Assembly (NCBI RefSeq): GCF_014640975.1
Contig: NZ_BMHO01000001.1
Span: 2,242,166 to 2,306,165, forward strand
Source: Microbacterium faecale
GTDB lineage: Bacteria; Actinomycetota; Actinomycetes; Actinomycetales; Microbacteriaceae
Direction of reading: 5' to 3'
Length of the DNA: 64,000 nucleotides
Shown here: one piece after another, positions 38,766-49,866 of the stretch
Layout of the letters: each line of letters starts with the position of its first letter
How positions within the stretch are numbered: position 1 is the stretch's first letter
Made by a program: the position numbers and the translations under genes
The notes under the pieces: generated by a model
Databases searched by the model: none
Seen by the model: only the letters and a program-made list of their open reading frames with translations
Told to the model about the DNA's origin: nothing

Positions 38766-40261
38766 CGGGACACTCCGTTCAGCTCCGGGGCCACGAGCGG
38801 ACCGCCCCAGTCATCGATGAGCAGCGCCTCGAGCGCCGCGCCGACGCGGTACAGGCGCGCGTCCTCCTGTGCGGGTGCGAGGAACTGGATCCCCACCGGC
38901 AGCCCGTCATCGGCCGCGAGCCCCGAGGGGATCGAGATGCCGGGCACGCCCGCGAGGTTCGCGGGGATCGTCGCGAGGTCGTTGGCGTACATCGCGAGCG
39001 GATCGTCGAGCTTCTCACCCAGCTTGAACGCCGTCGTCGGCGCAGACGGCGTCGCGATCACATCGACGTCCGCGAACGCGCGTTCGAAATCGCGCTGGAT
39101 GAGCGTGCGGACCTTCTGCGCGCGACCGTAGTACGCATCGTAGTAACCGGCAGAGAGCGCGTATGTGCCGAGGATGATCCGGCGCTTCACTTCCGGGCCC
39201 AAACCGGCCTCGCGCGTGGCGGCCATGACGTCCTCGACGGTCCCTGCGACGTCTGCCCGCATGCCGAAGCGCACCGAGTCGAAGCGCGCGAGGTTGCTCG
39301 ACGCCTCGGCGGGGAGGATCAGGTAATACGCCGCGGTCGCGTATTCGAAATGGGGGGCGCTGACCTCGACGACCTCGGCGCCTGCGGCCTCGAGCGTGGC
39401 GACGGCGGAGCGGAACGACTCGTCGACGCCCTGCGAGAAGCCGTGCAGCTCCTTCACGAGGCCGACCTTGAGGCCCTTCAGCACCTCGCCGGTGCTCCCC
39501 TCGCGGGCGGCCTCGGCGAATGACGGCCACTCGTGGCGCAGGGACGTCGCGTCATGCGGATCGTGTCCGGCGATGACGTCGTGGAGCAGACCGGCATCGA
39601 GCACCGTGCGCGAGACCGGGCCGATCTGGTCGAGGCTCGATGCGAGCGCGATCGCGCCGTAGCGGCTCACGCCGCCGTAGGTGGGCTTGACGCCGACGGT
39701 CCCGGTGACGTGTGCGGGTTGGCGGATGGATCCGCCCGTGTCGCTGCCGAGCGCGAGGGGCGCCTCGAACGCCGCGACGGCTGCCGCGGAGCCGCCGCCC
39801 GACCCTCCGGGGATCCGCTCGAGGTCCCAGGGGTTGCGCGTCGGGCCATACGCCGAGTGCTCCGTCGACGACCCCATCGCGAACTCGTCCATGTTGGTCT
39901 TGCCGATCGGCACGAGGCCGGCCGCGCGCGCCTTGGCGACGACCGTCGCGTCGTACGGCGACATGTAGCCCTCGAGGATCCGGGATCCGGATGTGGAGGG
40001 CATATCGGTCGTCACGAGAACGTCCTTCACCGCGAGCGGGACCCCCGCCAGCTCCGGCAGGCTCTCGCCCGCCGCGCGGCGCGCGTCGATGGCCGCGGCG
40101 CGGTCGGTGGCGGCCTCGTTGACGTGCAGGAAGGCGTTCACGGCGCCGTCGACCGCGCGGATCCGGTCGAGGTGCGCGCGCGTCGCCTCGACGCTCGAAA
40201 CCTCACCATCGGCGAGCAGCGTCGCCAGTTCGGCGGCGGGAAGTCGTGTCAGGTCGCTCAT
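38762..40261 (-). CDS. gatA: Asp-tRNA(Asn)/Glu-tRNA(Gln) amidotransferase subunit A
   Basis: The 499-residue amidase-signature enzyme holds the Lys of the triad in [14 protein letters not shown], the cis-Ser in [15 protein letters not shown], and the nucleophile Ser in [10 protein letters not shown]. It releases ammonia from glutamine and channels it to GatB. ATG 40261 overlaps the gatC stop by one base; a GTG at 40264 sits just before. The order C-A-B is usual. Confidence 0.97.
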
Positions 40262-40560
40262 CACTGCTCCTCCCCGAGGATCGCGGTCACGCGGAAGCGT
40301 TCGCCGTCGGCGTCGGGCGCGTTCTGGAGCGCCTGCTCGGTGGTGAGCATGTCGCCCGGCTCGTCTTCGCGGAAGACGTTCTCGAGCTCGATCGGGTGAC
40401 TCGTCGCGGAGACGTCGTCCGTCGCGACCTCGCTCACCGTGGCCATGCTCGCCACGATGGCCTCGAGCTCGCCGGTGAGGGTGGTCACCTCGTCGTCGGA
40501 CAGCTGGATCCGGGAAAGTGCGCCGAGATGACGCACGAGATCGGGGGTGATTTCAGACAC
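40261..40560 (-). CDS. gatC: Asp-tRNA(Asn)/Glu-tRNA(Gln) amidotransferase subunit C
   Basis: The 99-residue GatC has the [21 protein letters not shown] start and the belt-like [14 protein letters not shown] segment that wraps GatA and GatB. It stabilises the complex. Its start lies only nine bases after the stop of the acyl-CoA ligase gene, so gatCAB appears to be fed by the long glycosyltransferase transcription unit. No separate promoter can be fitted in that gap, although one may lie within the ligase gene. Confidence 0.95.
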
Positions 40561-40569
40561 CCCGTCAGT

Positions 40570-42264
40570 CTACGCGGCGAGAAGCTGCTCTTTCACCTGG
40601 CGCCGAAGTACCTTCCCGATCATCGACCGCGGGAGCTCCTCCACGACGACGAAGCGACGCGGAGCCTTGTACGGAGTGAGCACGCGCTTGACGAAGGCCC
40701 GGGCTTCGGCGGGGTCGAAGTCGTCGGCGGATCCCTCGAGCACGACGGCTGCGACGACCTCCTCGCCGTGCGCGGCGGACGGCAGGCCGACGACGGCGGC
40801 GTCGACGATCGCAGGGTGCTGTCGCAGCGCGATCTCCACCTCGGTCGGCGCCACGTTAAACCCGCCGGTGATGATGAGCTCCTTGATGCGGTCGACGACG
40901 GCGAAGTAGCCGTCCTCGTCCATCTCGACGATGTCGCCGGTGCGGAACCAGCCGTCGGAGAACACCCGCTCGGTCTCCTCGGGGCGCCCGTAGTACCCGC
41001 TGAACACCTGCGGGCCGCGCACCAGCAGCTCCCCCGGCTCGCCCTGCGCGACGTCGATCGTCGGATCATCGGGATCCACCACTCGGCACTCGGTGCCCGG
41101 CAGCGGCAGCCCGATCGTGCCAGGTTTGCGCGTGTCCGCGACCGGGTTGACGATCAGTACGGGAGAGCACTCACTGAGGCCGTATCCCTCCACGAGCATG
41201 CCGCCCGTCTCCGCTTCCCACGGCACGACGAGCTCGTGGTCGAGTGCCATCGCGCCGGATACGCCGATCTGGGTGCCCTCGAGCGAGACTCCGCGTTCCC
41301 GCGCACGGGCGAGCAGGCGTTCGGCGATCGGCGGCACCGCCGGCAGGACGGTCGCCGGGTGCTTCTTCGTGACCTGAAGCACCATGTCGGGGTCAAACTT
41401 CGGGAAGAGCACGAGCCGCGCCGCCTGCGACATCGCGTAGGTCAGGCAGAGGGTCAGGCCGTACGCGTGGAACATCGGCAACACGGCGTAGACGACGGTG
41501 CCCTCGCCGCGGGACACCGTCGGCGTCCACGCACGCGCCTGCGTCGCATTGGCCAGCAGATTGCGATGCGTCAGCGACGCTCCCTTGGGATCGCCGGTCG
41601 TGCCGCTCGTGTACTGGATGACGGCCAGGTCATCGGTCTCGGGCCCGGGTACATCCTGCGGCAGCGGGTCGGACGCGACGGCCTGCTGCCACGGGATCGC
41701 GCCGCGCACGCGGGTGGTGAGCTGCGCGCGCTGGGCGCGGAGCTTCGGCACCGGCAGACGCAGCGCCCAGCGCATGTAGGCCGGCATCGCGCGCGTGACG
41801 TCGACCGAGATGATCGTCGAGACCGCGAGGTCGGCCGGGAACTCCTGGATCGTCCCCACGACGTTGCTCCACACGATCGCGTGCTTCGCCCCGTGGTCGG
41901 CGAATTGCTTGCGCAGCTCGCGCGGTGTGTAGAGCGGGTTGTGCTCGACGACCACCGCGCCGAGTCGCAGGATCGCATAGAACGCCACGATGTGCTGCGG
42001 ACAGTTCGGCAGCACGAGAGCCACCGGATCCCCCTTCCGCACGCCCTCGGCACGGAGCGTGGCGGCCGCGCGGTCGATCTGCTCGGCGAGCGAAGCGTAC
42101 GACGTCACGGCGCCGAAGAACTGCAGAGCCGGGGCCGTCGGATATTCGCGCGCGGAATCGGCGACGAGGTCCATGAGCGATCCGCTCATCTCGGGAAGGT
42201 CGTGCGGGACCGTCTCAGCGTAGGAACGGATCCATGGGCGCGGCGGGTCGAACTGGTCGGTCAC
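40570..42264 (-). CDS. Long-chain fatty-acid-CoA ligase / AMP-binding protein
   Basis: The 564-residue ANL-superfamily adenylating enzyme has the P-loop YTSGTTGDPKGA, then GYGLSECSP, GWFRTGDIVEMDEDGY and the catalytic Lys near the end in RSMIGKVLRRQ. The FadD-like pattern fits long-chain acyl substrates. The GTG at 42264 overlaps the stop of the double-kinase gene (GTGA), so it belongs to the glycan operon by coupling. It might activate acyl chains for lipid attachment, or simply be a housekeeping FadD; the operon suggests the former. Confidence 0.87.
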   Translation of the reverse strand: MTDQFDPPRPWIRSYAETVPHDLPEMSGSLMDLVADSAREYPTAPALQFFGAVTSYASLAEQIDRAAATLRAEGVRKGDPVALVLPNCPQHIVAFYAILRLGAVVVEHNPLYTPRELRKQFADHGAKHAIVWSNVVGTIQEFPADLAVSTIISVDVTRAMPAYMRWALRLPVPKLRAQRAQLTTRVRGAIPWQQAVASDPLPQDVPGPETDDLAVIQYTSGTTGDPKGASLTHRNLLANATQARAWTPTVSRGEGTVVYAVLPMFHAYGLTLCLTYAMSQAARLVLFPKFDPDMVLQVTKKHPATVLPAVPPIAERLLARARERGVSLEGTQIGVSGAMALDHELVVPWEAETGGMLVEGYGLSECSPVLIVNPVADTRKPGTIGLPLPGTECRVVDPDDPTIDVAQGEPGELLVRGPQVFSGYYGRPEETERVFSDGWFRTGDIVEMDEDGYFAVVDRIKELIITGGFNVAPTEVEIALRQHPAIVDAAVVGLPSAAHGEEVVAAVVLEGSADDFDPAEARAFVKRVLTPYKAPRRFVVVEELPRSMIGKVLRRQVKEQLLAA

Positions 42265-44318
42265 CTCACCATCGTATTCATACGGCGGTCCGCCGAGCGC
42301 CACATGGCCTCGGCCGCCCGTCCTTCCCCGTGTCGCAGCGCGTAGACGGCGGCGAGGCGGAGGCGCGTCGCCATCTGATACGCGGGAATCGCGGACCACG
42401 TGGCCGCGGTCAGACGCTCGTCGCGCCGCAGCGCCTCTGCGAACGCCGTGCGCACCGTGCGCGCGGTCTCCGGCGCGAGCAGCGACTGTGCCTCGCGCAG
42501 CTCGATGTGGACGAGGAGGTTCGCGACGTCGAGGGCGGGGTCCGCGGCCGCGAGCGTGTCGACGTCGATCAGCCCGAGTCGCGGATCCGCGGCGGTCGCG
42601 TCGTGCGGGAGCAGGAGCTGTTTGTCGTGCAGGTCGCGGTGCGCGAGCACGCGGGGGCGGTCGCCCAGCGCGTCGAGGGCGTCCTCGACGGCCCGCAGCC
42701 TGCGGGAAGGGTCCGCGATCGCGCCGGCCGTCACCGCGGCGTCGACCGCCTTGCGCGTCGCTCTCAGCTCCTCCGCGGGTCCATGCTCGTCGAGTCCCGC
42801 GACGGTCATCGTCTGCAGCTCGGCGACGACGCGCGCCGTCTGACGCCAGGCGGCCGCGACGAGGTCGGCCGATGAGGACGGGTCGGCTCCCACCTCCAGC
42901 AGCGTCCTGTCTCCCACGCTTCGCTGACGAATCACGGCGAGACCGGCATCGGCCGAGACGATCTCGGGCGTGCGGGCTTCCGTCATTTCCGTCACGTGCA
43001 GCGCGCGACTCGCGACGCCAGCGAATCGCTTCGGTCGCACGGCCTTGATGTAGACATCGCCATCCGGCCGCGGCACGCGCACGACCGCGCGGCGACCGCG
43101 GCGGTGCACGATGACCTCCGCACCCGGTTCGGTGAGCGTCGGCGCGAGGCCCGGCAGCTCGGGGTCGACGAGCAGCCGTTCCGCGTGAGCGAGGATCCGC
43201 TCGACGTGAGCACGCCAGCCCGGTATGCGCAGGCGGAACGGTTCGACAGCCCGCCGCAGCAGGGCCACCGCGACGCGAGGTGCCAGCGCGGCGCGATCGA
43301 CCCGACCGCCGGCGGCCCGATAGCCCGCGAGGAGCCCGTCGCTTCCGTCTTCATCGTGACGCGCGAGTGCGTCGGCCGCCCAGCACGCGAGGTCGTCGAG
43401 CGGGTCGCCGTGATGGGCGCGATCGAGATCGATGATGTGTGCGGTGCCATTCGAGGCTACGACCACCTGGTCCGCGGAGAAGTCGCCGTGCACGAGCGTA
43501 CGCGTGGGGCGCGGAAGCGCGGCGATTGCCCGGCACGACGCTCGGGCGATGCGCTCGGCCCGTGAGGCAAGGTCCGGCGCGAGGGCGCCGACGGCACGCG
43601 CGGCGTCGCTCGCGTCGTCGTACGATGACGCGGCCCGCGACGGCGCCGTGCCCGCGTCGACGGCGTGGAGGCGCGCCAGTGCCCGGCCGGCCTCTGTCGC
43701 GGCTCGGGTCCCCGCGTTCTGCCCACGCAGATCGTCGAGAGGGAGGCCCTCGATGAGGGCCGTGGTGACGATCCCGAGCGTCTCGTCGACCGCGACGAGA
43801 CGAGCCGTCGGCAGGTGCGGCGCGACGCGCTCGTACGCGGCGACGGCGGCCCGGGCGGCGTCGAGCGTGTGCACCTTCACGACGACGCCGTCGGAGTGGC
43901 TGATGCCGACCCAGCGACGGCCCGGCTTATAGACGACGGCATCGAGGTCGGGGTGACGCCTCCGAGCTTCTCGGATACCAGGCAGGTGGCGGTCGGCCTC
44001 GTCCAGCGCGAGAACCAGCCCGTGCTCGCGGTCGTCGGCGAGGACGAGGTCCGGGCGGCGGCGCAGCTTGTCGAGCTTGTCGTGCGCCGCGACGGGATAG
44101 GCCGCCGCGTGCACCGCCCGTGTCTCGCCTCTGCCGTCGGAGACGAAGACGCCAGCGACGGCCGACGTGTGCGGCTTGTAGCGCACGTACGCGACGCGCG
44201 CCGCGTCGACTTCGTGCCCCGCCGATCGCAGGAGCGCGCCGATCCGTTCGCCGTCGAGCAGCGTCCCCAAGGCGGCCAGCCGCGTGTCGTTGCGAATGAG
44301 TGAGAGGTCGTCGTTCAT
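42261..44318 (-). CDS. Double aminoglycoside-phosphotransferase-fold protein
   Basis: The 685-residue soluble protein contains two kinase-fold modules in tandem. The first C-lobe has HGDFSADQ and IIDLDRAHHGDP (about 270-310). The second module starts near residue 390 and has HRDLHDKQ and LIDVDTLAAADPALD. In both, the catalytic Asp and the metal-binding DxD are kept, but the Asn expected four residues on is Gln. APH-fold enzymes phosphorylate sugars, aminoglycosides, choline or similar hydroxyls. With three glycosyltransferases and an exporter, a sugar or glycan kinase is likely; antibiotic resistance is less likely. It overlaps the ABC gene as ATGA. Confidence 0.8.
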   Translation of the reverse strand: MNDDLSLIRNDTRLAALGTLLDGERIGALLRSAGHEVDAARVAYVRYKPHTSAVAGVFVSDGRGETRAVHAAAYPVAAHDKLDKLRRRPDLVLADDREHGLVLALDEADRHLPGIREARRRHPDLDAVVYKPGRRWVGISHSDGVVVKVHTLDAARAAVAAYERVAPHLPTARLVAVDETLGIVTTALIEGLPLDDLRGQNAGTRAATEAGRALARLHAVDAGTAPSRAASSYDDASDAARAVGALAPDLASRAERIARASCRAIAALPRPTRTLVHGDFSADQVVVASNGTAHIIDLDRAHHGDPLDDLACWAADALARHDEDGSDGLLAGYRAAGGRVDRAALAPRVAVALLRRAVEPFRLRIPGWRAHVERILAHAERLLVDPELPGLAPTLTEPGAEVIVHRRGRRAVVRVPRPDGDVYIKAVRPKRFAGVASRALHVTEMTEARTPEIVSADAGLAVIRQRSVGDRTLLEVGADPSSSADLVAAAWRQTARVVAELQTMTVAGLDEHGPAEELRATRKAVDAAVTAGAIADPSRRLRAVEDALDALGDRPRVLAHRDLHDKQLLLPHDATAADPRLGLIDVDTLAAADPALDVANLLVHIELREAQSLLAPETARTVRTAFAEALRRDERLTAATWSAIPAYQMATRLRLAAVYALRHGEGRAAEAMWRSADRRMNTMVR

Positions 44319-46093
44319 CGTGGCCCTCCGGCGGCGGCCCGGTCGGCGGATCGATTGAGGATCGACAGGCGCGACGCGTCACGCCCGAGGAGTTCCTCCG
44401 GCGTGCCCTGCTCGACGATCCGGCCGCGCTCGAGCACGACGATCCGGTCGCAGCTCAGCGCGTCTTCGAGGTCGTGCGTGACGATCAGCGTCGTCTTGCC
44501 GGCGGTCAGCCGATCGAGCGCGTCTGTGACCGTGCCCGCGCTGGTCGCGTCGAGACCGCTCGTCGGTTCGTCGAGAATGACGATCCGGGCGTCGCGGAGA
44601 ATCGCGCGCGCGATCGCGATCCGCTGGCGCTGGCCGCCCGAGAGCGTATCTCCGCGCTCGCCGACCACCGTGTCGAGTCCGTCCGGCAGGCGCTCAGCGA
44701 ACTCGGTGACGTCGGCGACGTCGGCGGCCCACGCCACGTGCTCGTCCGTCGCCGTGGGGCGCCCCATCCGAATGTTGTCCCGAACGGTGCCCGCGAACAG
44801 CACCGATTCCTGCAGCACGATCGAGGTGGCCGCGCGCACGGAGGACAGCGTGCAGTCGCGGATATCGCGGCCGTCGATCTCGACGACGCCCTCAGAGGGA
44901 TCCTGTAGCCGGAGCACGAGGCTCGCGAGCGTCGACTTCCCGGATCCGGAATGCCCGACAAGCGCCACCCGCTCCCCCGCCAGCACATCGAGTTCGACGT
45001 TCTCGAGGGCGACGGTCTCGTCGTCATAACTCGCCGCGACGCCGCGGAAGCTCACGCGACCCGACGGACGGCCGAGGTCCTGTGTGCCGTCGGTGACCTC
45101 CGGGCGTTCCTCAAGCAGAGCGAGCACGCGCTCGCCCGACGCAAGCGCCTTTGCGATACGCCCGGTGTATTTCGCGAGGTCGCGCATCGGCTTGAACGCG
45201 CCCTTCAGGTACTGCACGAAGACGACCAGCTCGCCCGGAGTCAGGTGACCGCGTACGACGCTCATGCCGCCGATCAGCAGCACAGCTCCCGTCGCCACGC
45301 CGACGAGGACGTCCGTGGTCCGCTCGAGACCCGCGGCGAGCCGTGTCGCTCGCACTCCCTCGCGGAGCTCCTTGCTGTTGGACGATGCGAAGTCGCTCTC
45401 CAGCACCGGCTCGAGCGTGTAAGCCTGCACGAGCTTCATCGCGCTGAACGACTCGCTCGCCGCGCCCGCGAGGTCGCCCTCGCGCGCACGCTGTACCCGG
45501 GCCGCCCGCGTCACGCGCCGACTCGACACGTGCGAGAACAGCAGGAAGATCGGGAACGCCGCCAGGATCACGAGTCCCAGACGCCAGTCGAGGAACATCA
45601 TCACGGTGAACATCGCCACGAGGGTGACGCAGTTGCCGATCAGCGGCATGGCCGCGGTGACGGCGACGTCGCGCATCTTGCCGACATCGCTGACGAGGCG
45701 GTTGATGAGGTCGCCGGCACGCGAGCCGTTGTGGAAGCGCAACGAGAGTCGCAGCGCGTGCGCGTAGACGCGGCCGCGAACGGTGTTCATCGTGCGGGTT
45801 CCGGCGAGTGCGAAGCACACCGTCATGAAATAGGCCGCAAGCGCCCGGATCCCCGCCGCGGCGAGGACGGCCACGGCACACACGGCGAGCAGCACCACGA
45901 TGCCGGAGTCCGCGGCTGCTCCGGGGGCCACGACGGCATCGATCACGAACTTCAGCGGCCACGGCTCAATGACGCGGACGGCGACCTCGATGAACATCGC
46001 CGCGAACCCGCCGACGACGAGCCCGCGATTCGGCCGCAGATGCGGGCGGAGAAAACGCAGGAGGCGGCGCAGAGATCCGGTCTTCTTCGTCAT
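44315..46093 (-). CDS. ABC exporter, fused membrane and ATPase domains
   Basis: This 592-residue half-transporter has six membrane helices within 1-320, including the MTVCFALAGTRTMNTVRG intracellular loop, and an ATPase domain from about 345. Walker A is GHSGSGKST, then LSGGQRQR, Walker B IVILDEPTS and the H-loop in VTHD. It acts as a homodimer exporting lipids, glycolipids or peptides (MsbA type). The start is ATG 46093, overlapping the stop of the glycosyltransferase as ATGA. Operon position predicts that it moves the product of the glycosyltransferases. Confidence 0.9.
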   Translation of the reverse strand: MTKKTGSLRRLLRFLRPHLRPNRGLVVGGFAAMFIEVAVRVIEPWPLKFVIDAVVAPGAAADSGIVVLLAVCAVAVLAAAGIRALAAYFMTVCFALAGTRTMNTVRGRVYAHALRLSLRFHNGSRAGDLINRLVSDVGKMRDVAVTAAMPLIGNCVTLVAMFTVMMFLDWRLGLVILAAFPIFLLFSHVSSRRVTRAARVQRAREGDLAGAASESFSAMKLVQAYTLEPVLESDFASSNSKELREGVRATRLAAGLERTTDVLVGVATGAVLLIGGMSVVRGHLTPGELVVFVQYLKGAFKPMRDLAKYTGRIAKALASGERVLALLEERPEVTDGTQDLGRPSGRVSFRGVAASYDDETVALENVELDVLAGERVALVGHSGSGKSTLASLVLRLQDPSEGVVEIDGRDIRDCTLSSVRAATSIVLQESVLFAGTVRDNIRMGRPTATDEHVAWAADVADVTEFAERLPDGLDTVVGERGDTLSGGQRQRIAIARAILRDARIVILDEPTSGLDATSAGTVTDALDRLTAGKTTLIVTHDLEDALSCDRIVVLERGRIVEQGTPEELLGRDASRLSILNRSADRAAAGGPR

Positions 46094-47268
46094 TGCACTG
46101 CTCCTTCCGGTACGCGCAGGGCGAGGTCGGCGGCCGCAAAGGATCGCTCGACGACGTCTGTCCACGTACGGTGACGCATCACGTCGGCACGCGCCGCGGA
46201 TCCGAGCCGCGCACGCTGCGCCGGGTCGGCGGCCAGTGCATCGAGAGCGTCTGCGAGCGCTCGCGGATCTGAGCCGGGAACGAGGATTCCCGTGCGGCCG
46301 TGGTCGACGAGTTCGGGGATCTGTCCCACGCGGGAGGCGACGACGGTGACGCCGGCCGCCATGTACTCGAGTACCTTGAGCGGCGAGAAGTAGGTGTCGC
46401 CGTGCGCGGGGTACGGCGCGACCGCGACATCGAACTGCGCCAGACGGCCCGGCACGTCGACCGGATCCATGGCGCCGGCGAACTCCACGTCGACGCCCGC
46501 CTCGCGCGCCTGCTGGGCGAGGGCATCGCGCTCAGGACCGTCCCCGACGATCACGAGGCGCGTCTCGGGGCGGTCGAGGAGTCGCACGGCGTCAACGAGC
46601 GCGTCGGTTCCGTGCCACGGCTTGAGCGTTCCGACGAATCCGACGGTGAACCGCTCCTGCGACCGCGCGACCTCGCGAAACCGCTCCGGATCCACACCGT
46701 TCGGCTCGACGTGCACCCTGCTGGCGGGAACGAGGGTGCGCGCCCACGCCGCCACGGCGTCCGAGACGCAGATGACGGCGGTCGCGTCGGCGAGGACAGT
46801 GCGCGCCACCTGGTCGGCGACGTCGGCTCGAACGAGCCGGCGGTGCCTCGCCTGTTCAAGCGGCAGCGGGGCGTTGACCTCGAGGATCGACGGCACTCCC
46901 GCGGCACGCGCCACCGTCGTGCCGGCGGTGCTGAAGAGCGCATAGCGCTCGTAGACGACGTCGTACCCGCGCACGGCGTGCTTCGCGGCGATCACCGCGG
47001 CGAGCTCGGCGTCAGCCGCGATCAGCTTCTCCTCGCGGCGCGCGGCATCGCTGTCCGAGATCCGCTCGGCCGCGTGGACCCGCAACTGCCTCTCGTCGAT
47101 CGCCGCCGCGAGGGCGGCGGGCGGTTCACCGCCCGTCCGGCGGCAGAACAGGTCGACCTCGTGCCCGGATCGGAGGAGGACCCGCAGGACCTCCTGCACG
47201 TGCACCGAGGCGCCCTTCGAACCGAAGACGGGGATCCCCGGGTCGGCGCAGACGTAGGCGATTCTCAT
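46090..47268 (-). CDS. GT4-family glycosyltransferase (first GT-B gene next to the exporter)
   Basis: The 392-residue GT-B enzyme has an N-terminal acceptor domain (GSKGASVHVQEVLRVL) and a C-terminal donor domain with PNGVDPERF, VGDGPERDAL and YFSPLKVLEYMAAG. The E-x7-E motif lies in the last segment. It transfers a sugar from a nucleotide-sugar donor. No membrane helix is present. The ATG at 47268 overlaps the previous gene's stop by one base. Donor and acceptor are unknown. Confidence 0.87.
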   Translation of the reverse strand: MRIAYVCADPGIPVFGSKGASVHVQEVLRVLLRSGHEVDLFCRRTGGEPPAALAAAIDERQLRVHAAERISDSDAARREEKLIAADAELAAVIAAKHAVRGYDVVYERYALFSTAGTTVARAAGVPSILEVNAPLPLEQARHRRLVRADVADQVARTVLADATAVICVSDAVAAWARTLVPASRVHVEPNGVDPERFREVARSQERFTVGFVGTLKPWHGTDALVDAVRLLDRPETRLVIVGDGPERDALAQQAREAGVDVEFAGAMDPVDVPGRLAQFDVAVAPYPAHGDTYFSPLKVLEYMAAGVTVVASRVGQIPELVDHGRTGILVPGSDPRALADALDALAADPAQRARLGSAARADVMRHRTWTDVVERSFAAADLALRVPEGAVQ

Positions 47269-48491
47269 CACGCGACCTTCCATTCGTCTTCCTCGCTCGA
47301 CGTCAGCAGAGCGTCAAGCTGCTCGGCCTGTCGGGCCGATGCGAACTGCCGCTCGACGAGACCGCGGGCGGCCGCCCGGAGGTCGTCGGCGAGGGCGACA
47401 TCGTCGATCAGCCGCAGGATCGCGTCAGCGAGCGCGGCCGGGTCGTGCTGCGGCACCGTCAGTCCGGTCGTCCTGTCGCGCACCGCCTCGGTGATGCCCG
47501 TGACGTCCGTGGAAACGCACGGGGTGCCGAGTGCCATCGCCTCGAGGAGCACGGTGGGCAGACCGTCGGCATTACCGTCGCGGCCGACAACGCACGGCGC
47601 GGCGAAAGCCCGCGCGAGGCGCACCTCTTCACGGATGCGTTCCTGCGGCATCGGTCCCGCGAGCGTCACGAGGTCGCCGATACCGTGATGCGCGATCCGG
47701 TCGATGAGGCTCCGCTCCTCATCGCCGCCGCCGATGATTCGGCACGTCACGTCGCGTCCGCGCCTGCGCAGTCCGGCGATCGCGTCGACGAGGTCGACGA
47801 AGCCCTTCTTCTCCACCAGCCGTCCGACCGCGATGACGTCGACCGCCGCCGGGGCCGGCGCGCCTCTCCGGAACGGGAAGGCGTCGAGGTCGATGCCGTT
47901 GTAGACCCGGCAGATCGGCGTCGCGGAGCGCGTGAGGGACGTCAGGAATCGGACGTTGAAGTCCGAGACGGTCACGACGTGGTCGGCGTCGGCGATCTTG
48001 CGTGCGACGTCGTCGCGATCGACGGACTCATGGAAGAGGTCCTTCGCGTGCGCCGTGAACGAGTACGGGATGTCGGCGAGGAGCGCGGCGAGGCGTGCGA
48101 TCGTCGTCGCCATGCTCGCGAAGTGCGCGTGCAGGTGTGTCACGCCGTCGTCGAGAGCGCGGTGAGCGACGTCGATCGCCTGCGCCGCGTCCGACGCATC
48201 GGCGCGCAGCAGCTCCGGGAGCGCTCGCGTCCATCCGGGGAGGCTCTGTGCGCCCCCGATCGACTGCCACTGCGATTCGGCACTGCGCACGCGCGGGATG
48301 TACGAGACGGGCGCGGCCACATCCGCGAGCATGCCGTGGAAGCGCGGATCCACGGGCGGACGCATCGAATAGATGCGCACGTCGGTTCCCCGGGCCTCTC
48401 GCGCGAGGATCTCCGTCACGATAAAGGTCTCCGAGAACCGCGGATACATCTTGAGCACGTATCCGATGCGGTGCGGGTCAGAGGTGCGCAT
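47268..48491 (-). CDS. GT4-family glycosyltransferase (WcaL-like)
   Basis: The 407-residue GT-B enzyme has the N-terminal RIGYVLKMYPRFSETFIVTEI segment characteristic of colanic-acid WcaL/AmsK-type transferases. It also has HLHAHFASMATTIARLAA, VYNGIDLDAFP and GLPTVLLEAMALGTPCVSTDVTG. It probably extends a polysaccharide or glycolipid. Its start overlaps the end of the upstream transferase gene by 14 bases. It ends EEDEWKVA. Confidence 0.87.
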   Translation of the reverse strand: MRTSDPHRIGYVLKMYPRFSETFIVTEILAREARGTDVRIYSMRPPVDPRFHGMLADVAAPVSYIPRVRSAESQWQSIGGAQSLPGWTRALPELLRADASDAAQAIDVAHRALDDGVTHLHAHFASMATTIARLAALLADIPYSFTAHAKDLFHESVDRDDVARKIADADHVVTVSDFNVRFLTSLTRSATPICRVYNGIDLDAFPFRRGAPAPAAVDVIAVGRLVEKKGFVDLVDAIAGLRRRGRDVTCRIIGGGDEERSLIDRIAHHGIGDLVTLAGPMPQERIREEVRLARAFAAPCVVGRDGNADGLPTVLLEAMALGTPCVSTDVTGITEAVRDRTTGLTVPQHDPAALADAILRLIDDVALADDLRAAARGLVERQFASARQAEQLDALLTSSEEDEWKVA

Positions 48492-49701
48492 GGGCGACGT
48501 CCTTTCGACGAGAAGCGACGAGACCTTCGACCAGCCCAGGGATCCGGCGCAGGCCGTCGAGGTCGACAGAAGCCGGTGTCGGCCGGTCCGCGCGCAGCGT
48601 CGACATCCGCAGCCAGGCCGAGATCGCCTCGGGCGAAAGGCTCTCGGGCAGCAGCATGTCGATGAGCCCGGCCTCGCTCATGACGGACGCGCGCACGAGC
48701 TGTTCGCGGCGGGGCACGACGCGCGGGATGACGAGCATCGGGGTACGTGCGGCGATCGCCTCGCACACCGTGTTGTATCCGCCCATGCCGACGAGCGCCG
48801 CGGCACCAGCGACGAGACCGGCGGCGTCATCGACGGATGCGACCACGCGCATGTCCGTGCGCTGCGCCGCGATCCGCTCGAGGTCTCGCACCTGCTCGGG
48901 CGGCATCTGCGGGCCAGCCAGCAGGATCCCGTCGTAGCCGTGCGGGAGCTCGCTGCGCACGAAGGCATCGGCGACGGTGAACCCGTCGGCTCCGCCGCCA
49001 AACGCCGCGAGCGCGTAGGGCCACTGCGCCGGGCGACGCCCGGAGGTGCCGCGCCCGTGGGCGAGGTAGCCGGTGTAGACGACGTTCTGCGCGATGTGTC
49101 GCGGGATCGGGAGGAGAGCGAGAGGGTCGTGCAGGCGGCGATCGCCGTAGACCCAGATCTGGTGGTACCAGCGAGCGAGCGCATCGCGGGTGCGATCGGC
49201 GAGCCACTCCTGTCGCGTCACGAGTGGATCGTCGAGCACGTCTCGAATGCCGAGCACGACCCGCGTCCCGTGCGCGGCGAGCATCTCGAGCGCGGGCTCG
49301 AGCTCGCCGCTGAGACCACGCGGGTGTTTGTCGACGATGAGAACGTCCGGGCGGAACGCATCCAACGCGGCCGACAGAATGCCTTCACGCATCCGGCCGA
49401 GGTGTCCGCGGTCCAACGACAAATGCCGCGAGGTGTACGTCCCGTCGGCGCTCTTCGCGACGCCGGGCAGCGCTACCACGTCACAGCGGTCGGGCCGGTC
49501 GCCCGCGACGACCTCGGGGGCGCTCGTGAGCAGCAGGATGTCCGGGGCCTCCGCTGACCCGGCGAGTGCGTGCGCGAGTGCGAGATTCCGGCGGATGTGT
49601 CCGAGTCCAAGAGCGTCGTGCGAATACAGCGCGACACGGGGCGGCCCGGCGTGCGCGGCCCCCGGAACAGGGGCGAGCGGTGCCTCGCGCGTGATCGTCA
49701 T
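48478..49701 (-). CDS. MurG-like predicted glycosyltransferase (COG4671 type)
   Basis: The 407-residue protein opens its GT-B fold with ALYSHDALGLGHIRRNLALAHAL, the hallmark of the COG4671 group distantly related to MurG. The C-terminal half has GMGGYNTVCEAIAARTP, the donor-binding loop. It is the first gene of the long minus-strand unit. A GGGGAGGACTT ribosome site lies just before the ATG. MurG-like enzymes add sugars to lipid-linked acceptors, so this may be the initiating transferase. The substrate is unknown. Confidence 0.83.
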   Translation of the reverse strand: MTITREAPLAPVPGAAHAGPPRVALYSHDALGLGHIRRNLALAHALAGSAEAPDILLLTSAPEVVAGDRPDRCDVVALPGVAKSADGTYTSRHLSLDRGHLGRMREGILSAALDAFRPDVLIVDKHPRGLSGELEPALEMLAAHGTRVVLGIRDVLDDPLVTRQEWLADRTRDALARWYHQIWVYGDRRLHDPLALLPIPRHIAQNVVYTGYLAHGRGTSGRRPAQWPYALAAFGGGADGFTVADAFVRSELPHGYDGILLAGPQMPPEQVRDLERIAAQRTDMRVVASVDDAAGLVAGAAALVGMGGYNTVCEAIAARTPMLVIPRVVPRREQLVRASVMSEAGLIDMLLPESLSPEAISAWLRMSTLRADRPTPASVDLDGLRRIPGLVEGLVASRRKDVAHAHL

Positions 49702-49814
49702 GAAGTCCTCCCCAGCGGTTCTGCGATGAGATCCACTCTGGGCGCAGGCGATGAGGCGGATGTGACGGTGAGATGAGAGAGCGTTTAGACGGCGTTCATG
49801 TTTCTTACAATCGC

Positions 49815-49854
49815 GAAGGGCGCCCCGCGGAACTCGCTCCGCGGGGCGCCCTTC
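49815..49854 (-). terminator. Terminator of putP
   Basis: A perfect 17-bp stem (49815-49831 with 49838-49854) and a 6-base loop lie 13 bases after the putP stop. The G/C-rich palindrome is strong in both directions but lacks a T run. The 113 bases between it and the glycosyltransferase start (49702-49814) hold the promoter region of the glycan operon; no clear -35/-10 pair could be fixed. Confidence 0.88.
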
Positions 49855-49866
49855 GGCGAGAGAGGG

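Follow-up and report, generated by a model that had tools for sequence, protein, structure and literature searches.

Three routes are usually distinguished for the polysaccharides that bacteria secrete, namely Wzx/Wzy, Wzm/Wzt and synthase. The first uses a Wzx flippase and a Wzy polymerase, the second is ABC-dependent and needs separate membrane and ATPase subunits, and the third relies on a GT2-type processive synthase. The chains of ABC-exported O antigens can be terminated by a WbdD-type kinase, and lipid-linked glycans are exported by one-chain transporters such as MsbA and PglK.

We analysed a stretch of 64,000 nucleotides from Microbacterium faecale (the window), in which six minus-strand genes, A to F, lie between positions 40570 and 49701, each overlapping its neighbour (Table 1). 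Neither a Wzx flippase nor a Wzy polymerase was found among these six genes, the exporter D is a single chain and not a pair of subunits, and the transferases are of the GT-B and GT4 kinds, with a GT2-type processive synthase missing. By the tests made, the five-gene module A-E thus belongs to none of the three usual routes. The original prediction had likewise reported no polymerase, Wzx or Wzm/Wzt pair, and had named no characterised pathway with such a set; in keeping with this, no description of the module was found in the open-access PubMed Central literature, searched by titles and abstract starts, with preprints outside the scope. D is similar to MsbA and PglK in its one-chain TMD-NBD architecture but falls under the curated NCBIfam cut-offs of both. 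The tie of a kinase gene to transferases and an ABC exporter resembles WbdD-type termination; in contrast to that system, E has two APH-fold domains and the exporter is not Wzm/Wzt. With alginate export through AlgE, as outlined in PMC9601211, the module shares parts: a barrel gene of this type comes right after E in some diderm loci and on E. coli plasmids (5 of 80 loci and two E. coli plasmid stretches), a likeness inapplicable to the Gram-positive window. Unlike the alginate route, the inner-membrane step of the module is an MsbA-type ABC exporter, with no processive synthase.

Table 1. Positions of the genes and loci discussed in the text; entries without a locus label are positions in the window.
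Feature	Position	Strand	Description
Gene A	48478..49701	(-)	GT-B glycosyltransferase, GT1/GT28-like; labelled COG4671 in the original prediction
Gene B	47268..48491	(-)	GT4 glycosyltransferase; closest to an EpsE-type model, under its cut-off
Gene C	46090..47283	(-)	GT4 glycosyltransferase; start at 47283 or 47268
Gene D	44315..46093	(-)	Fused ABC exporter, MsbA type; ATG start at 46093
Gene E	42261..44318	(-)	N-terminal region and two APH-fold kinase domains
Gene F	40570..42264	(-)	FadD-type long-chain acyl-CoA ligase; GTG start at 42264; coupled to E, outside the conserved module
Gap between putP and gene A	49702..49866	(-)	Expected promoter place
Inverted F to gatC	40261..42264		Operon may read on into gatCAB
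Lone E-like kinase, window's own genome	L197:3463-6929		Contig C2; regulator/sensor pair alongside
Lone E-like kinases, other genomes	L198-L201, L204, L205		Regulator/sensor pair alongside
E. coli plasmid version	L161:1547-11737		Module, barrel and sugar dehydrogenase
Divergent cluster	L250:15-8806		Proteobacterial; heparinase II/III-type gene
Sister cluster	L246:8517-14531		Proteobacterial
Sister cluster	L247:8586-12233		Proteobacterial

The coupling of six genes on one strand, as originally predicted, was verified by their overlaps, which measure 14 bases for A/B and 4 bases each for C/D, D/E and E/F. The B/C overlap is 16 bases with the first ATG of C (47283) and 1 base with the second (47268), and the predicted range of 1-14 bases holds with the second start and fails with the first. 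When C is started at the second ATG, the beginning of the protein resembles that of relative L153. No sigma-70-type site was found by a scan of the minus strand in the gap between putP and A. The GC content is 0.69-0.73 at the operon and 0.66-0.72 in the flanks, with no break in base composition.

Among the matches listed in an NCBIfam scan of the six window genes, no family scored above its cut-off for A, B, C, D or E, and PDB profile searches returned distant relatives only. A reached 18.2 bits against Glyco_tran_28_C, under the cut-off of 22, and the protein of the window was unmatched by TIGR01133 (MurG) at E 0.01, whereas 18 of 43 relatives of A matched this model at E <=0.001 (best 1.5e-8). 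Despite the domain score below cut-off, the predicted model of A (pLDDT 90.5) has a GT-B fold with GT1 and MurG-type transferases nearest to it, in line with the MurG-like transferase expected; among its structural neighbours are MurG and MGD1, a galactolipid synthase, and the nearest structures are antibiotic glycosyltransferases. An alignment of 43 homologues of A contains 39 invariant columns. Domain families also bore out the two GT4 transferases and the MsbA-type exporter of the original prediction, as both B and C matched GT4, and D carries ABC_membrane and ABC_tran within one chain. A defence system was considered and rejected, PADLOC having matched only D, via its ATPase part (best mad3, E 4.7e-33).

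We retained 80 genome loci that carry an E homologue, out of 136 confirmed. The complete order A-B-C-D-E on one strand was present in 70 of these, and nine were cut by contig ends and agree as far as they reach. The sole exception was L018 (Millisia), where E stands alone beside a response regulator and a sensor kinase. Pairwise distances of the five proteins correlated at 0.86-0.91 (3081 pairs from 79 loci, being 70 of the 80 and nine more), a value that includes shared species history. Judged from their sequences, A-E is one conserved module with common inheritance. The six genes had been predicted to form one operon, but their membership in a single unit was not confirmed: the order of the five genes A-E is conserved and the place of F is not, since no match to F above 300 bits was found in any of the 80 loci, some of which end shortly past E. 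Protein families and the conserved module agree with the predicted machinery for glycan assembly and export, with its three transferases, its exporter of the MsbA type and its protein of two kinase folds in tandem.

By record title, the carriers are Actinomycetota, alpha-, beta- and gammaproteobacteria, Planctomycetota and one Caldilineaceae MAG. Within the genus, A was detected in 24 of 366 genomes and E in 5 (both at E 1e-30), the count for E being the lower one; E diverges faster and was searched with a single query sequence. A was also present in 17 of 296 sampled Actinomycetota (E 1e-20), with B adjacent in 15 of the 16 other positive genomes; the flanks reach B and not D or E, and the figure of 17 therefore counts A and not the whole module. 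When 72,556 plasmids were searched with E of Paracoccus, 13 matched (10 from Escherichia, 2 from Paracoccus and 1 from Pseudorhodobacter). The 10.2-kb E. coli version occurs in 18 of 5426 complete genomes, plasmid-borne in every case and at least 99% identical, and the module of L161, which includes the barrel and a sugar dehydrogenase, is carried by E. coli plasmids of the conjugative IncF type. A phage origin was rejected, as a search of 50,697 phage records with E gave no match at E 1e-5.

The genes beside the module gave indications of its product. By annotation, two E. coli plasmids have the arrangement A-B-C-D-E1-E2-alginate export protein-nucleotide sugar dehydrogenase. A PF13372 alginate-export barrel is encoded directly 3' of E at L029, L037, L057, L074 and L079, which amounts to 5 of the 28 diderm loci among the 80, several others ending shortly past E; most diderm loci are therefore without a known exit route at the locus. 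A profile built from these five barrels and one E. coli protein had no matches in a set of 89 loci other than its six sources and the second E. coli stretch, and the barrel of L057 matched AlgE structures (E 1.1e-4). An OmpG-type porin gene, cut by the contig end, follows E at L087, a Porin_O_P gene lies ahead of A at L039, and GalE comes after E at L070. Nucleotide-sugar dehydrogenases forming one cluster are present in 8 of the 80 loci; the enzyme of one locus and that of E. coli pass TIGR03026, and the nearest models are those of UDP-glucose dehydrogenase, with scores below their cut-offs. At the proteobacterial locus L250, a divergent cluster (A-B-B-heparinase II/III-APH-ABC exporter), a heparinase II/III-type gene is placed between two B-like transferases and the APH gene. 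Although each type of neighbour (barrel, dehydrogenase, heparinase-type) was found in a minority of loci, together they point to an exported anionic glycan, possibly uronate-bearing, and the alginate-export-type barrel past E in some diderms argues for a soluble product there. Neither Wzx nor Wzy was seen among the matches listed (25 of 86 Pfam families) for 93 flanking ORFs of diderm loci, and no sugar-nucleotide gene, polymerase or initiating transferase was constant at the module loci.

E has the tandem APH fold that had been predicted, with two APH (PF01636) stretches and catalytic residues present in each domain. In all 46 aligned fused sequences, domain 1 retains HGD....Q and D.D, and domain 2 retains HRD....Q and D.D. 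Lysine 424 is present in all 46, and position 147 is occupied by K in 34 sequences and by R in 12 (residue numbers refer to the aligned sequence without the first Met). Both kinase domains look competent. The Gln found in the catalytic loop where APH enzymes have Asn is, we presume, reminiscent of maltokinases. Similarly, the profile of E matches both maltokinase and glucosamine kinase, and maltokinase 4u94 was the first Foldseek hit; however, the target TM-score of this hit was only 0.39, E has two kinase domains, and its gene neighbourhood is a different one. The solved relatives of E are general APH-fold kinases with substrates from drugs to choline and sugars, and a PDB sequence search with E alone as the query gave no match. 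The window and most proteobacterial loci have E as a single protein, and many actinobacteria have two adjacent genes for it. Three consecutive E-type kinase stretches were observed at L076, L083 and L092, all from the Arthrobacter group. A role of E in aminoglycoside resistance was rejected, as E scored 30 bits against the APH(3') equivalog cut-off of 205. Current annotation of the module parts is generic, an example being 'aminoglycoside phosphotransferase family protein', which could be misread as drug resistance.

The five-gene set most likely makes and exports a charged sugar chain, and its product is probably a secreted anionic glycan containing uronic acid and/or phosphate. On balance, we lean towards a reading in which A-E builds a glycan in the cytoplasm, phosphorylates it and exports it, in diderms by way of a barrel where one is present, with F as a local add-on. 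A, B and C would add the sugars, assembling the glycan on the cytoplasmic side, E with its two kinase domains would phosphorylate it or its precursor, D would act in the direction of export, and the AlgE-type barrel, where diderms have it, would take the glycan across the outer membrane. We infer the order of these steps, their chemistry, the direction of transport and the action of E on the glycan. A more far-reaching proposal, which we put forward only tentatively and regard with some doubt, is that the module represents a separate type of extracellular-glycan pathway, spread across phyla and conjugative plasmids, in which phosphorylation by a tandem APH-fold protein is the release signal, an MsbA-type protein is the exporter, and an AlgE-type barrel serves some diderms without OPX or synthase. 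If true, a cross-phylum and plasmid-mobile module that lacks the usual inner-membrane parts would add both an export route and a phosphorylation step to those described.

F contains an AMP-binding domain with its C-terminal domain, and its score of 815.9 bits against PRK05605 (FadD-type long-chain acyl-CoA ligase) exceeds the equivalog cut-off of 766. An F-like ligase was detected at E <=1e-150 in 33 of 33 same-genus genomes, whether the module was present or not. At the F loci of 29 relatives, F is on the strand opposite to gatC in 27 and no gatC is seen in 2, and A-E was beside F at none of them. Adjacency to E was found only in the window and in two congeners, G389 and G596; in these three, F is inverted and its overlap with the end of E measures 4, 4 and 8 bases. 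The module carriers G367 and G446 have F away from E, and G026, which lacks the module, shows putP, F and gatC, with F unturned and 81% identical to F of the window. Weaker AMP-binding matches occur further off in a few of the 80 loci. F was rejected as a module member because it adjoins E only in these three genomes and the ligase is found genus-wide regardless of the module. By its sequence, F is an ordinary FadD-type fatty-acid gene, locally added to the operon and outside the module; given its coupling in three genomes, a lineage-specific role is possible. For the same reason of restricted adjacency, the acylation step of the original prediction is unsupported, F being of the FadD type and not conserved with the module. 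The next gene begins 9 bases past the stop of F and is, from its position, presumably gatC. Since F is inverted relative to 27 of the 29 relatives' loci and lies this close to gatC, the operon may extend into gatCAB.

It seems unlikely that the product is instead, along the lines of the original prediction, a membrane glycolipid or wall glycopolymer, for which A would glycosylate a lipid, B and C would extend it, E would phosphorylate it, D would flip it and, in a Microbacterium sub-group, F would acylate it. Such a product would suit the best NCBIfam match of D, the lipid A exporter model MsbA_lipidA (416.4 bits, short of the equivalog cut-off of 602), the presence of MurG and MGD1 among the structural neighbours of A, and the overlap of F with the end of E in the window and its two congeners even though F is opposite to gatC in most relatives. 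On the other hand, F is not beside E in the 80 other loci and the ligase is present with or without the module, and an AlgE-type barrel would not let a lipid-anchored product through.

A two-component system is a frequent neighbour of the module. A HAMP sensor kinase was found in 28 and an OmpR-type regulator in 20 of the 80 module loci, and the matches listed for flanking ORFs (93 picked from 26 diderm loci) include 15 to HisKA and 12 to Response_reg. In 59 genomes of the genus, the regulator (E 1e-85) was present in all six carriers of A and in 7 of the 53 others (Fisher p 3.8e-5, kinship ignored); it adjoins the module in five of the six carriers and does not do so in the genome of the window. 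At all seven further loci examined, a regulator/sensor pair lies beside a lone E-like kinase gene with no transferases (Table 1), and two of these lone E-like proteins were confirmed as APH. The seven loci comprise six of the seven regulator-bearing non-carriers and the window's own genome. Because the two-component system also stands next to a lone kinase at these loci and at L018, it may serve the kinases and not the glycan. Such lone kinases, together with maltokinase as the first Foldseek hit, are what would be expected if E left the glycan unmodified and was either a cytoplasmic sugar-kinase pair feeding precursors or a regulator linked to the two-component system, beside an ordinary oligosaccharide exporter. 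We consider this improbable, as E accompanies A-D in 79 of the 80 loci as far as contigs allow, which would exceed the need for a general precursor kinase. Least probable is a small secreted glycoside (an antibiotic, metallophore or signal) made by the transferases, for which E would be a kinase of self-protection or tailoring and D an efflux pump: the antibiotic glycosyltransferases nearest to A, the APH fold of E and the patchy, partly plasmid-borne occurrence of the module (A in 24 of 366 genus genomes) would fit, but no aglycone or aminocyclitol gene is constant beside the module, E is far below the APH(3') cut-off, and the barrel, sugar dehydrogenase and lyase-type neighbours suit a polysaccharide better.

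A profile of A at E 1e-30 was positive in 31 of 398 genomes in the phylum of Palleronia and in 49 of 198 in its family (centre genome counted), with A below 1e-150 in only 1 of the 31 and 3 of the 49. Two A-like matches were present in 27 of the 31 and 40 of the 49 positive genomes, and these represent a different, sister cluster. In the proteobacterial examples L246 and L247, this cluster combines homologues of A and B with another A-like transferase, accompanied at L246 by a GT4 transferase and a histidine phosphatase.
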